A stretch of 38,622 nt of DNA from Bacteroidota bacterium. Lineage in GTDB: Bacteria > Bacteroidota > Ignavibacteria > UBA10030 > SZUA-254. Positions 4,917 through 38,351 of this stretch are shown one piece after another (within the stretch, counting starts at the first letter, position 1; the number at the start of each line of letters is the position of its first letter). Under the pieces are notes generated by a model that was given only the letters and a program-made list of their open reading frames with translations, did not search any database and was not told the DNA's origin. The stretch covers positions 1-38,622 of the forward strand of contig JASEHD010000013.1 in assembly GCA_030019075.1 (NCBI GenBank), in the 5' to 3' direction. The position numbers and the translations under genes are program-made.

Positions 4917-4989
4917 GCTGGCGTAGCTCAGCTGGTAGAGCAGCTGATTTGTAATCAGCAGGTCGTTGGTTCAAATCCGACCGCCAGCT
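4917..4989 (+). tRNA. tRNA-Thr (TGT)
   Basis: Cloverleaf: acceptor GCTGGCG/CGCCAGC, D-arm GCTCAGCTGGTAGAGC, anticodon loop TTTGTAA, GGTTCAAATCC T-arm. Confidence 0.95.
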
Positions 4990-5081
4990 CTAATTGTTGT
5001 CAGGACGTAAAGAAGGTGAACAATTTCTCAGGATAAAAAATTTCGAGTTGTAAAACTGATCTGAAGGTCGATGAAAAATTT

Positions 5082-5164
5082 GGGCAGGTAGCAAAGTGGT
5101 CTACTGCAACAGACTGTAAATCTGTCGGCTTATGCCTTCGGAGGTTCAAATCCTTCCCTGCCCA
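5082..5164 (+). tRNA. tRNA-Tyr (GTA), class II with long variable arm
   Basis: Acceptor GGGCAGG/CCTGCCC, anticodon loop CTGTAAA, variable arm, GGTTCAAATCC. Confidence 0.95.
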
Positions 5165-5186
5165 CGAGTGAAGGTTAAACCAAGTT

Positions 5187-5259
5187 GCGGGAGTAACTCA
5201 GTTGGTAGAGTCACAGCCTTCCAAGCTGTTGGTCGCGGGTCCGAGTCCCGTCTCCCGCT
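5187..5259 (+). tRNA. tRNA-Gly (TCC)
   Basis: Acceptor GCGGGAG/CTCCCGC, anticodon loop CTTCCAA, GGGTCCGAGTCCC. Confidence 0.95.
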
Positions 5260-5382
5260 CAAGTACTGAGACTTCTTGAAGAATTGGAAAGAAGTACGAC
5301 AAGACAAAGTTGCTCCTCCTGATATCAATATTGGTCGATATCGCGAAGTATAGTTGCCCGCTCAGCGTGAGATTAAGATATT

Positions 5383-5455
5383 GCTTGCGTAGCTCAGTTG
5401 GTAGAGCACATCCTTGGTAAGGATGAGGTCATCGGTTCAATCCCGATCGCAAGCT
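5383..5455 (+). tRNA. tRNA-Thr (GGT)
   Basis: Acceptor GCTTGCG/CGCAAGC, anticodon loop TTGGTAA, GGTTCAATCCC. Confidence 0.95.
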
Positions 5456-5484
5456 CGGTAATAATAAATAATGGAATTTATAAA

Positions 5485-5634
5485 ATGCGTGATATTATAA
5501 CTTTAGAGTGTACTGATTGTAAACGACGGAATTACACTACAACCAAGAACAAAAAAAAGCAATCTGGCAGAGTAGAATATAAAAAATTTTGTCCGTGGTG
5601 CAACAAACACACACAACACAAAGAAACGAAGTGA
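5485..5634 (+). CDS. rpmG: 50S ribosomal protein L33 (zinc-ribbon form)
   Basis: [49 protein letters not shown]; the track ORF begins upstream inside the tRNA, and the true ATG is at 5485. Confidence 0.95.
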
Positions 5635-5643
5635 ACGACTAAT

Positions 5644-5717
5644 ACGTCAGTAGCTCAATTGGCTAGAGCAGCGGTCTCCAAAACCGCAGGCTGGGGGTTC
5701 AAGTCCCTCCTGACGTG
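5644..5717 (+). tRNA. tRNA-Trp (CCA)
   Basis: Acceptor ACGTCAG/CTGACGT, anticodon loop CTCCAAA, GGGTTCAAGTCCC. Confidence 0.93.
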
Positions 5718-5763
5718 CTCGGCTAAACATCTATCATAACATGAATTATAGGCAGACGACAAA

Positions 5764-29062: not shown

Positions 29063-29431
29063 ATGATAAAGAAATCAAGAATAGAAAAGCGTTTAAAAGT
29101 AAAAAAGTGTATTCAAAAGAAAATGCGTGGTACTAGCGATAGACCACGTCTGACTGTATACCGGAGCTTACACCATATTTATGCTCAAATCGTTGACGAT
29201 ACGGAATCGAAAACATTGGTAGCTGCATCTACCTTATCACCACTGCTTCGTGAAAATATTAAGAATGTAAAAGGGCAAAAAAATCTTGCTAAATTAGTTG
29301 GTGTTGAAATAGCTAAAAAAGCAATCGAGCATAATATCAAGAAGGTAGTTTTTGATCGGAATGGTTATCAATATCATGGAGTTGTAAAATCACTCGCAGA
29401 TGGTGCAAGAGAAACCGGACTTGAATTTTAA
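29063..29431 (+). CDS. rplR: 50S ribosomal protein L18
   Basis: [24 protein letters not shown]...[28 protein letters not shown]. Confidence 0.97.
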
Positions 29432-29467
29432 ACAGCTTGTCAAATCCCGGCTGTTCAATTAAAGATT

Positions 29468-29538
29468 TGCCGGGTCGTCTAATGGCAGGACAGCGGCCTT
29501 TGGAGCCGTCAGTAGAGGTTCGACTCCTCTCCCGGCAG
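29468..29538 (+). tRNA. tRNA-Gln (TTG), located between rplR and rpsE
   Basis: Cloverleaf: acceptor TGCCGGG/CCCGGCA, D-arm GTCTAATGGCAGGAC, anticodon stem GCGGC/GCCGT with loop CTTTGGA, T-arm GAGGTTCGACTCCTC. Confidence 0.94.
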
Positions 29539-29572
29539 CGAAATTTTTTAAATTATTTCTGGAGCAATAAAT

Positions 29573-30097
29573 TTGTTAAAAATAAGAACAAGTGAATTAG
29601 AATTAAAAGACCGACTCGTTTATATCAACCGAGTCGCAAAGGTTGTCAAAGGTGGACGTCGTTTTAGTTTCAGTGCAATCGTGGTTGTAGGCGATGGCAG
29701 GGGACATGTCGGAGCCGGATTAGGAAAAGCAAACGAAGTTCAGGATGCAATCTCCAAAGGAATCGATGATGCAAAGAAAAATGTGCACAAGGTATCCATT
29801 AATAAAGGTACGATACCTCATATGGTTATAGCAAAGTATGGTGCCTCTAAGGTTTTGCTCAAACCTGCATCTCCGGGTACGGGATTAATCGCCGGAGGTG
29901 GTGTCCGCGCTGTATTAGAATCAGCCGGTGTGAAGGATGTTCTCACCAAGTCAATTGGTTCATCGAATCCTCATAACGTTGTTAAAGCTACAATTAAAGC
30001 GCTGTTAAGTCTGACCGATGCAACGACAATGGCAGCACGTCGGTCAATATCTTTAAATGAATTATTCGGTACACCAACAGCTGCACCAATGAATTAA
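29573..30097 (+). CDS. rpsE: 30S ribosomal protein S5 (TTG start)
   Basis: [36 protein letters not shown]. Confidence 0.98.
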
Positions 30098-30106
30098 AGT
30101 AATATT

Positions 30107-30292
30107 ATGGCAAAACAAATTAAAATAACTCAGGTTGTCAGTCAGATCCATTGCTTAAAGGCACATAAAGCTACTATAACAGCACTTGGACTTGGCAGAC
30201 CACATTATTCTGTAGTAAAGAATGATACTCCGCAGATAAGAGGTATGATTTCGAAAGTTAAATACCTTGTAAAGGTGGAGGAGGTGAAATAG
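30107..30292 (+). CDS. rpmD: 50S ribosomal protein L30
   Basis: MAKQIKITQVVSQIHCLKAHKATITALGLGRPHYSVVKNDTPQIRGMISKVKYLVKVEE. Confidence 0.96.
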   Translation: MAKQIKITQVVSQIHCLKAHKATITALGLGRPHYSVVKNDTPQIRGMISKVKYLVKVEEVK

Positions 30293-30297
30293 AAAAT

Positions 30298-30777
30298 ATG
30301 GGACAAGATATATTAAGTAATTTACACTTCGCAGAAGGTGCAAGGAAACGGGTGAAGCGGATTGGTCGTGGACAAGGATCAGGACATGGAGGAACAGCCA
30401 CACGCGGTCATAAAGGAGAAGGTGCAAGGGCAGGAACACATTATCGACCGTGGTTCGAAGGCGGTCAGATGCCTCTGGTGAGACGTGTCCCCAAATTTGG
30501 ATTTCATAATCCGTTCAGAATCGAATATCAAGTTGTGAATATATCAACATTAGAAAAATTCTCTGTTGAAGGAAAAATTTCAGAAGGAAAAGTAAATCCG
30601 GACGATTTATATAATATGGGTATATTACGCAAGAAAAATAAGTTAGTTAAAATCTTAGGGAATGGCGATCTAAAAGCAAAGCTTGAGATATCAGCTCATT
30701 CGTTCAGTAAATCTGCGATACAGAAAATCGAGAATGCTGGTGGAAAAGCGATTACAATTTCACAGTTAACAAAATAA
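30298..30777 (+). CDS. rplO: 50S ribosomal protein L15
   Basis: KRIGRGQGSGHGGTATRGHKGEGARAG...FEGGQMPLVRRVPKFGF. Confidence 0.97.
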   Translation: MGQDILSNLHFAEGARKRVKRIGRGQGSGHGGTATRGHKGEGARAGTHYRPWFEGGQMPLVRRVPKFGFHNPFRIEYQVVNISTLEKFSVEGKISEGKVNPDDLYNMGILRKKNKLVKILGNGDLKAKLEISAHSFSKSAIQKIENAGGKAITISQLTK

Positions 30778-30783
30778 ATTATA

Positions 30784-32118
30784 ATGGCAAGACTCAGCGA
30801 AAGTTTTCGAAACATTTTTAAAATCCAGGAACTACGGCAGAGAATTATTTTTACTGCCGGACTGTTAATTGTTGTTCGTTTTGGTTCTCATATTACACTG
30901 CCGGGTGTTGATGCGGCGGTATTAGCCGATGCGATGCGCAATCAAGCATCGAATACATTGTTTGGTCTATACGATTTGTTTGTAGGTGGTGCGTTTAGCA
31001 ATGCCGCTATTTTAGCACTCGGTATAATGCCATACATCAGCGCGTCAATTATAATACAGTTACTCGGAGCGGTCGTCCCTTATTTCCAAAAGTTGTCGAA
31101 GGAAGGTGAAGAGGGCAGGAAAAAAATTACACAACTGACCCGGTACGGTACGGTATTGATCTCCTTGCTTCAGGCATGGGGTGTTAGCGTTCAGCTATTA
31201 AGTTTAAATGCAGGAGGTATTCCCATCGTTCCACTTGAGGTGCAGGGTTTTGGTTTTCAGTTTTCAACAATTATCGTTTTAACAGCCGGAACAATATTCA
31301 CGATGTGGCTGGGAGAGCAAATCACAGAGCGAGGTATTGGAAACGGGATATCGTTGATTATATTCATCGGTATCATCGCACGATTTCCCCATGCAATCCT
31401 GGATGAATATCAACTGGTTAGCTCAGGAGCTCGTAGTCTGATCGTTGAATTAATCGTGATTGGTTTAATGGTTCTTATTGTTGCTGGTATTGTAGCAGTT
31501 ACACAAGCAACGAGGCGGATACCCGTTCAGTATGCGAAGCGTGTTGTTGGTCGAAAAATTTATGGCGGTGTAACACAATATATTCCCATTCGTGTCAATA
31601 CCGCTGGTGTCATGCCGATTATTTTTGCTCAAGCTATCATGTTCATTCCAAATACAATTTTAACTTTCTTCCCTGAAAGCGACTTCATGCAGGGCATTGC
31701 AGGTTATTTCGACTATACATCTTTTACATATTCTATAATCTTTGCTTTGATGATTATTTTCTTCACATATTTTTACACTGCGGTTGCATTTAATCCAAAA
31801 GATGTCGCAGAAAATATGCAGAAACAAGGCGGATTTATTCCAGGGATTCGACCGGGGAAAAATACATCAGATTTTATTGACAATATATTGACAAAGATTA
31901 CATTACCGGGTTCGATATTTTTAGCAATTGTTGCGATTTTGCCAGCTTTCATGATGCGTTTAGGTGTAACATCAAATCTTGCAAGTTTTTTTGGTGGTAC
32001 AAGTTTGTTAATTGTCGTAGGTGTTGGATTGGATACTCTCCAACAAATTGAATCACATCTATTAATGCGTCACTATGATGGGTTTATGAAAAGTGGAAAG
32101 ATCAAGGGTCGCCGGTAA
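30784..32118 (+). CDS. secY: Preprotein translocase subunit SecY
   Basis: 444-aa multipass membrane protein; LGIMPYISASIIIQLL...GIGNGISLIIF...RIPVQYAKRVVGRK. Confidence 0.98.
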   Translation: MARLSESFRNIFKIQELRQRIIFTAGLLIVVRFGSHITLPGVDAAVLADAMRNQASNTLFGLYDLFVGGAFSNAAILALGIMPYISASIIIQLLGAVVPYFQKLSKEGEEGRKKITQLTRYGTVLISLLQAWGVSVQLLSLNAGGIPIVPLEVQGFGFQFSTIIVLTAGTIFTMWLGEQITERGIGNGISLIIFIGIIARFPHAILDEYQLVSSGARSLIVELIVIGLMVLIVAGIVAVTQATRRIPVQYAKRVVGRKIYGGVTQYIPIRVNTAGVMPIIFAQAIMFIPNTILTFFPESDFMQGIAGYFDYTSFTYSIIFALMIIFFTYFYTAVAFNPKDVAENMQKQGGFIPGIRPGKNTSDFIDNILTKITLPGSIFLAIVAILPAFMMRLGVTSNLASFFGGTSLLIVVGVGLDTLQQIESHLLMRHYDGFMKSGKIKGRR

Positions 32119-36473: not shown

Positions 36474-38351
36474 TTATCTCAACAAGAGGAGCTTTTTTGT
36501 TTCGATGAACGATCCCACTTTTATTTGAGAGAAGTAGATACCGCTCGGTACCCCGCTTGCATTCCATTCCACCGACTTGTATCCTGCATCTTGCATCCCA
36601 TCAACCAATGTTGCTACTACTTGCCCGAGAACGTTGTACACTATTAGAGTTACCCATCTGGATTCTGGCATCTGGTATCTGATTTCTGTGGAAGGATTAA
36701 ACGGATTTGGATAATTTTGTTCGAGTGCAAATCGATCAGGAATATTTGACGCTATAATATCGACGTCAGGCAAATCAGGGGCTTGAGGCGGCATCTCACT
36801 TGTCGGTCTTATTTTTATGCGGGCTGCTGCGGTGGATATAGATGATGAGGATAGTATCAGCTGTCCCGGCTGATTTACTTTTACCCAGTAACCCTTTGTT
36901 GGTTCGATTATATCGACTTGTTGATAACTTCCATTATAACCAAAGAACTGAGATGTGATAATACCACCAGGATCAGAGATAATGTTCTCAACACCGATTG
37001 GGTAAGTAAGTGAGCCGATGAGATTCCAACCTTCTAATACATCAATCGTATCCATTGGGATTGTTTTACCATCGATTTTTAAGCACACTTTACTTGGGAG
37101 TTTCAACCAGTATCCTTTACCAACATCCAACGATTCACGTGCTAAATATATACCTGCAAACTCAAAGAGTTTAGAACTCGCAGATGGAAAAATGATATCT
37201 CGAGAAGGATTTTGAACATTTTTAGGTAGTGATACAAGATTCCATCCTTGAAATAAAGGGTACAAAATTGATTGCCCAAACTTGAAAGTGTTATAATGGC
37301 TTCCATTACCTAATGTAGATGATCCCGTTACATATACATTATTAAGTGTATCAATAGCAATTGCTCTTGCTATTTCAGCAGAGTTGTGGGATCCATAATG
37401 TTTTGTAATCCATGTTTGATCACCCTGTGATGTGTATTTTATTGTTACAATGTCATAAGATGTTCTCGGGCACTCACTATGGCCGGTTACGTATATATTA
37501 CCAAAACGGTCGTGAGTGATGGCTTTCGCAATATTATTAGAATTGTTAGACCCACAATATCGTACTGCCCACTCTTGAGTACCTTCTGAAGTGTACTTCA
37601 GGGTGACATAGTTGCTGTTATTACCTAAACTATCACTATATCCAGTTACATATATATTCTGAAAATTGTCTATTGTAATTCCTTGAGCAAAGTCGTTGTA
37701 ATTATGGGCTCCATCATAAAATGCGACCCACGCTTGAATACCCAAAGGAGTATATTTCACAGTAGCAAAGTCTACGGTTGCTTCAGAACCCCAGCAATAT
37801 CCGGTAACATATACATTCTCCAAGCCATCAACAGCGATAGCTTTGGCAACGTCGTAAGCATTTCCAGGTCCATCATATCGTGCTACCCATTCTTCATTTC
37901 CTGATGATGTGTACTTAATTGTGGCATAGTCTTCAGATGTACTCAAACCATGACTGTATCCAGTTACAAGCACATTATCATGGATGTCAACAGTAATGGC
38001 AGTTGGTATATCGGAACCATTCCCGGGTCCATTATATCGTGCTACCCATTCTTCATTTCCTAATGATGTGTACTTAATTGTAGTATAGTCTTCAGATGTT
38101 CCTGAATTATAGCTATATCCAGTAACATAAACATTACCAGAGCTATCAATAGCAATGGCTGTCGCGAAATCATTGAAATTTCCAGTGCCATTATATCGTG
38201 CTACCCATAGTTGAATACCTGCTGAGGTGTATTTTACTGTTGTATAGTCGAAGAATGATCCTGCACCATCACTAGTGTAACGTCCCATAGATAAGTAGAC
38301 ATTAATAAAATAATTTAGTATATTGGTATCAACAATAAAAAAGGATACCAA
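36474..38351 (-). pseudogene. SBBP/beta-propeller repeat protein with T9SS type A sorting domain, 5'-truncated by an IS630-like insertion (first ~26 codons of the ORF are IS-derived)
   Basis: Repeats of the type SSGNVYVTGYS..TSEDYTTIKYTS.GNEEWVARYNGPGN..D.A.AIA.D; C-terminus FALEQNYPNPFNPSTEIRYQMPESRWVTLIVYNVLGQVVATLVDGMQDAGYKSVEWNASGVPSGIYFSQIKVGSFIETKKLLLLR. The ORF N-terminus (MVSFFIVDTNILNYFINVYLSMGRYT) is translated from the IS end and is not a signal peptide. Confidence 0.75.
37881..38270 (-). repeat. Tandem ~159-bp (53-codon) SBBP repeats, DNA-level
   Basis: TGCTACCCAT starts at 37881, 38040 and 38199 (159-bp spacing). The first 60 bp of the first two copies differ at only 3 positions. 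Confidence 0.8.

Follow-up and report, generated by a model that had tools for sequence, protein, structure and literature searches.

Mixed operons of tRNA and protein genes are a known principle, and the closest described cases to the one discussed here are the tufB operon of E. coli (thrU-tyrU-glyT-thrT-tufB) and the tRNA-Trp gene of the secE operon in Bacilli (PMC8046335), where tRNA genes and genes of the translation machinery share one operon in the same large gene cluster as the one treated here. In both systems the tRNAs are excised from mixed transcripts (PMC8046335), and we propose the same for a tRNA-Gln gene with anticodon TTG that lies inside the spc operon, between rplR and rpsE, on contig JASEHD010000013.1 of a member of the Ignavibacteria; the 38,622 nt analysed are referred to as the window. 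However, the tRNAs of the tufB and secE systems are at the ends of operons or between operons and there are often several of them, whereas here a single tRNA gene is in the middle of spc between two ribosomal protein genes.

In E. coli secG and leuU are reportedly carried on one transcript that is processed by RNase P, and in metY-nusA-infB the tRNA and protein genes are likewise co-transcribed with RNase P processing. These two differ from our case in being outside the ribosomal protein operons, and in secG-leuU the tRNA gene follows the protein gene, whereas here it splits a long operon. A single sense-strand tRNA gene inside spc is also found in what we call the Chlorobi-type operon of a related lineage, with tRNA-Gly(TCC) between rplN and rplX (L076 226-299, L069 86-159 and L084-L087, all from metagenome-assembled genomes (MAGs) with Chlorobiaceae or Chlorobiales names). 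It differs from the window in both the tRNA and the gap that it occupies, and for that reason we treat it as an independent insertion.

The arrangement in the window is thus an instance of the known principle of mixed tRNA-protein operons, but the clade-wide insertion of tRNA-Gln in spc is apparently undescribed so far. A full-text literature search, with most subscription papers outside its reach, gave no published account of a tRNA between rplR and rpsE, and the accessible parts of a gene-cluster study of 204 genomes of Gammaproteobacteria and Bacilli have no mention of a tRNA inside spc. Few gene strings in bacteria are as conserved as the spc operon, in which inserts are unusual.

Our reading is that the sole tRNA-Gln(UUG) gene is built into the spc operon, is co-transcribed with it, is excised from the message and has been kept there by descent, and we consider this very probable. 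The gene itself is well defined. ARAGORN calls tRNA-Gln(ttg) at 29468-29539 on the + strand, and Rfam gives a full-model RF00005 match at 29468-29538 (60.2 bits, E 9.7e-11), in agreement with the coordinates in an earlier note on this DNA and with its claim of a full tRNA, for which it had proposed a covariance search. A covariance model of the window tRNA (R1) scores it at 102.9 bits. The cloverleaf is complete, its four stems all being present and its anticodon UUG; the acceptor stem is of 7 bp, the gene starting with TGCCGGG and the 3' strand being CCCGGCA followed by discriminator G (29538), and CCA is not encoded. Over an alignment of 23 orthologues of the tRNA, 99.8% of helix cells are paired, double-sided compensatory changes are present in 8 of the 20 stem pairs, the covariation score was equalled in none of 500 shuffles, and sliding the partners by 1-3 columns reduces pairing to 40-56%. 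Such pairing, with compensatory changes that beat both the shuffles and the slid partners, argues that this is a functional tRNA gene and not a chance match.

The window's own genome is a 98% complete draft with 43 tRNAs found by RF00005, all but one of which had the anticodon read by ARAGORN, the unread match being 87 nt at C11:8967-9053, a length typical of Ser or Leu tRNAs. The earlier note had raised the question of whether the spc copy is the only tRNA-Gln(TTG) gene in the genome, and it is the only one found; the one other tRNA-Gln has anticodon CTG, which under standard wobble rules cannot read CAA. In single-contig relatives too the spc copy is the sole TTG tRNA-Gln among matches with the anticodon read, weaker matches being partly unread. 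As sole reader of CAA codons the gene would be kept in place by descent, and given its location in the operon the supply of this tRNA would be tied to transcription of ribosomal protein genes.

The glutamine identity pair U1-A72 is present, with U1-A invariant in 23/23 aligned sequences, and the predicted charging enzyme is GlnRS, the gene for which is in the window's genome (759 bits); full-length GatB was not found there. Two other carriers of the spc tRNA (G073 and G194) have the opposite, with GatB present and no full match to GlnRS. A link between the position of the tRNA and the charging route (GlnRS or GatCAB) was considered and dropped, as both routes occur among carriers and there is no simple link.

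The features of the locus are as follows.

29063-29431, + strand: rplR (ribosomal protein L18), upstream neighbour, 122-aa open reading frame (ORF)
29432-29467, + strand: upstream spacer of 36 nt, predicted to serve as the pre-tRNA 5' leader and to end the upstream half of the mRNA as its 3' tail, from sequence
29468-29538, + strand: tRNA-Gln gene, anticodon TTG at 29500-29502, from ARAGORN, Rfam and covariation
29539-29572, + strand: downstream spacer of 34 nt, predicted 5' untranslated region of the downstream half of the mRNA after 3' cleavage, from sequence
29573-30097, + strand: rpsE (ribosomal protein S5), downstream neighbour, TTG start at 29573, 174-aa ORF, from orthologue alignment
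30107-32118, + strand: rpmD, rplO and secY, expected on the downstream half of the mRNA, ORFs named by order and sequence

The surrounding genes follow the standard str-S10-spc-alpha order, and rplR orthologues are found in 57 of 60 relatives. The tRNA gene is thus on the sense strand within spc between rplR and rpsE, as the earlier note had placed it, with gaps of 36 and 34 nt. The downstream spacer has a Shine-Dalgarno-like TGGAGC about 8 nt ahead of the rpsE start codon, and a GGAG-type motif precedes rpsE in many relatives. Within the upstream spacer there are a weak hairpin (AACAGC/GCTGTT) and a CCCGGC that is complementary to the 5' strand of the tRNA, neither of which is a general feature of the relatives.

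For the distribution of the arrangement we searched 197 genomes of the class with R1 and the rpsE protein. The tRNA was linked to rpsE by joined positions in 88 genomes, to which G168, G187 and G108 are added to give 91, and it is just upstream of rpsE on the same strand in 91/91 genomes with a located rpsE from the 11 carrier families of this sample (f1, f2, f4, f5, f10, f13, f14, f16, f17, f24 and f27). A sample of relatives agrees for f1-f5 and adds f3 as a twelfth carrier family. The spc tRNA is absent from the checked genomes of f6, f7, f8, f9, f11, f12, f15, f18-f22, f25, f26 and f28. Carriers among named records are Ignavibacteria, including Melioribacteraceae, and the named records of Bacteroidia, Chlorobi, Kapabacteria and Calditrichota are without a tRNA-Gln in spc. 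The same type of tRNA is found in other parts of the phylum, where it is away from ribosomal protein genes in 9/9 loci inspected, and the long rplR-rpsE gaps of Kapabacteria and deltaproteobacterial MAGs contain no tRNA and no other Rfam family. This pattern indicates an arrangement inherited in one large branch of Ignavibacteria. The earlier note had held it not to be standard in model bacteria, which agrees with its absence from the other Bacteroidota and the Chlorobi sampled; its presence in all assessable genomes of 12 families makes it common within the class, and lowers its novelty by the measure that note had itself proposed.

One locus (L193 in G197) has a tandem pair of tRNA-Gln genes, TTG (2175-2246) and then CTG (2344-2415), both between rplR and rpsE, an apparent duplication followed by a change of anticodon.

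In a quick tree built from L6, L18, S5, L30 and L15 the carriers group together, with three groups that lack the tRNA nested inside, namely f6, f12, and f9 with f20, and the minimum number of changes is five. The tree is thus not that of a clean carrier clade, yet the approximately unbiased test does not reject a single clade of carriers (p 0.23), and for this reason loss of the tRNA and never having gained it are both possible for these nested groups. Two histories fit the data, a single gain with a few replacements and a single gain in a smaller clade. In all four f6 genomes whose tRNA was read (L152-L155) the tRNA-Gln(TTG) is of a clearly different type, TGGGGTGTAGCCAAG... or a close variant of it, and is found at other loci, which looks like replacement of one tRNA-Gln by the other in f6. 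With a tRNA that is apparently essential and present in single copy inserted clade-wide and inherited, nature offers a test of whether the boundaries and relative output of ribosomal protein messages can be set by tRNA processing, and the nested lineages without it (f6 and f12) are natural controls.

Co-transcription, cleavage and any effect on expression of S5 and the genes downstream are what we infer from the layout. Among 60 non-redundant lineages about 17 have the tRNA starting just 4-8 nt past the rplR stop codon, and a promoter therefore cannot fit in the gap. Within the scanned region of the window nothing promoter-like was matched on the + strand ahead of the tRNA, and loci with the tRNA show no enrichment of the Bacteroidota -7 motif in front of it (4 in 69 loci, against 3 in 96 loci without the tRNA). 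With such gaps and no enrichment of promoter motifs, co-transcription and excision is the simplest reading. The tRNA would be transcribed within the S10-spc-alpha message and fold in the nascent transcript, RNase P would cleave between 29467 and 29468, the 3' cut after G29538 would be made by RNase Z or an equivalent enzyme, and CCA would then be added by the CCA-adding enzyme. Cutting by these two enzymes between rplR and rpsE, which the earlier note had put forward, can soundly be expected, and since the tRNA-Gln must be made from inside the operon the operon mRNA would be cut in two, with the upstream part ending just past rplR and the downstream part starting about 34 nt before rpsE with a short leader. 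Uncut transcripts would possibly be translated too.

The earlier note had also proposed that expression of S5-L30-L15-SecY and the alpha genes would depend on the processed end; any such dependence may not be universal, as f17 has a conserved promoter-like stretch in the gap from the tRNA to rpsE. This is an AT-rich element containing TATATTTG, near-identical in 11 loci, some of them from the same genome twice, and we take it to resemble the Bacteroidota -7 promoter box TAnnTTTG; given this resemblance, transcription may re-start after the tRNA in at least this one family. The f17 loci concerned (L083, L200, L201 and L236-L243) have the element strongly conserved (ATATTGTGGATTTTTATATTTTTTTTATATATATTTGTAATTAG), and the other families inspected did not show it.

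Some points weigh against co-transcription with excision. Little is known of promoter motifs in Ignavibacteria, and a promoter inside the rplR coding sequence is possible; furthermore a conserved hairpin in the upstream spacer that would protect the 3' end had to be rejected as a general feature, the fold z being -1.9 in the window and the mean z -0.42 over 31 spacers. Nested promoters are common in bacteria, and a promoter within the end of rplR could express the tRNA independently of the operon, with possible room for part of it in the upstream spacers of 30-54 nt that several families have; however, as no promoter-like motif is enriched upstream of the tRNA and the spacer is just 4-8 nt in many members, we think it improbable. 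That the gene is a pseudogene or relic has next to no probability, being refuted on comparative evidence by its complete structure, its compensatory changes and its being the sole copy.

If co-transcription with excision is accepted, what cutting does for the operon can be read in two ways. The tRNA may be a passenger, excised from the operon transcript by cuts without regulatory role and held in position as the sole copy is hard to move, which is a part of our main explanation and compatible with it, and to which we give about an even chance. Upstream spacers span 4-54 nt and downstream spacers about 20-137 nt across relatives, and spacer lengths, folds and sequences have no conservation across the class beyond the frequent GGAG-type site, so both spacers vary freely with no conserved structure, which argues against an elaborate switch. 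The layout also seems dispensable, since f6, f12, f9 and f20 have either lost it or never acquired it, and f6 has the other tRNA-Gln type elsewhere. Alternatively the rpsE-secY-alpha message may owe its 5' end or its stability to excision, or ribosomes terminating on rplR may compete with tRNA folding and so couple translation of L18 to release of the tRNA. The 4-8 nt gap in about 17 of 60 lineages would place the tRNA beneath the terminating ribosome, and RNase P cuts mRNA in E. coli, its cleavage of mRNAs having been reviewed (PMC11143913). However no sequence or structure flanking the tRNA is conserved across the class, and f17 seems to carry a separate promoter element past the tRNA, so that we regard a regulatory role as rather doubtful. 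The fullest form of it, in which obligatory excision of the only CAA-reading tRNA couples and balances tRNA-Gln supply, L18 translation and S5-SecY-alpha expression through RNase P, is in our view somewhat less likely again. A switch in which CCCGGC of the upstream spacer pairs with the 5' strand of the tRNA was also tried, with p <0.05 in 4/31 spacers only; as these four are all in f1, the family of the window itself, the pairing is probably lineage-specific or due to chance.

Elsewhere in the window, positions 4917-5718, near its start, hold clustered tRNA genes, Thr(TGT)-Tyr-Gly(TCC)-Thr(GGT)-Trp, that match the ancestral tufB/secE tRNA set. Just past the alpha operon on the opposite strand (36474-38351, - strand) there is a 625-aa ORF with repeated GNVYVTGYS-like units, which ends with a stretch resembling a C-terminal secretion tag.
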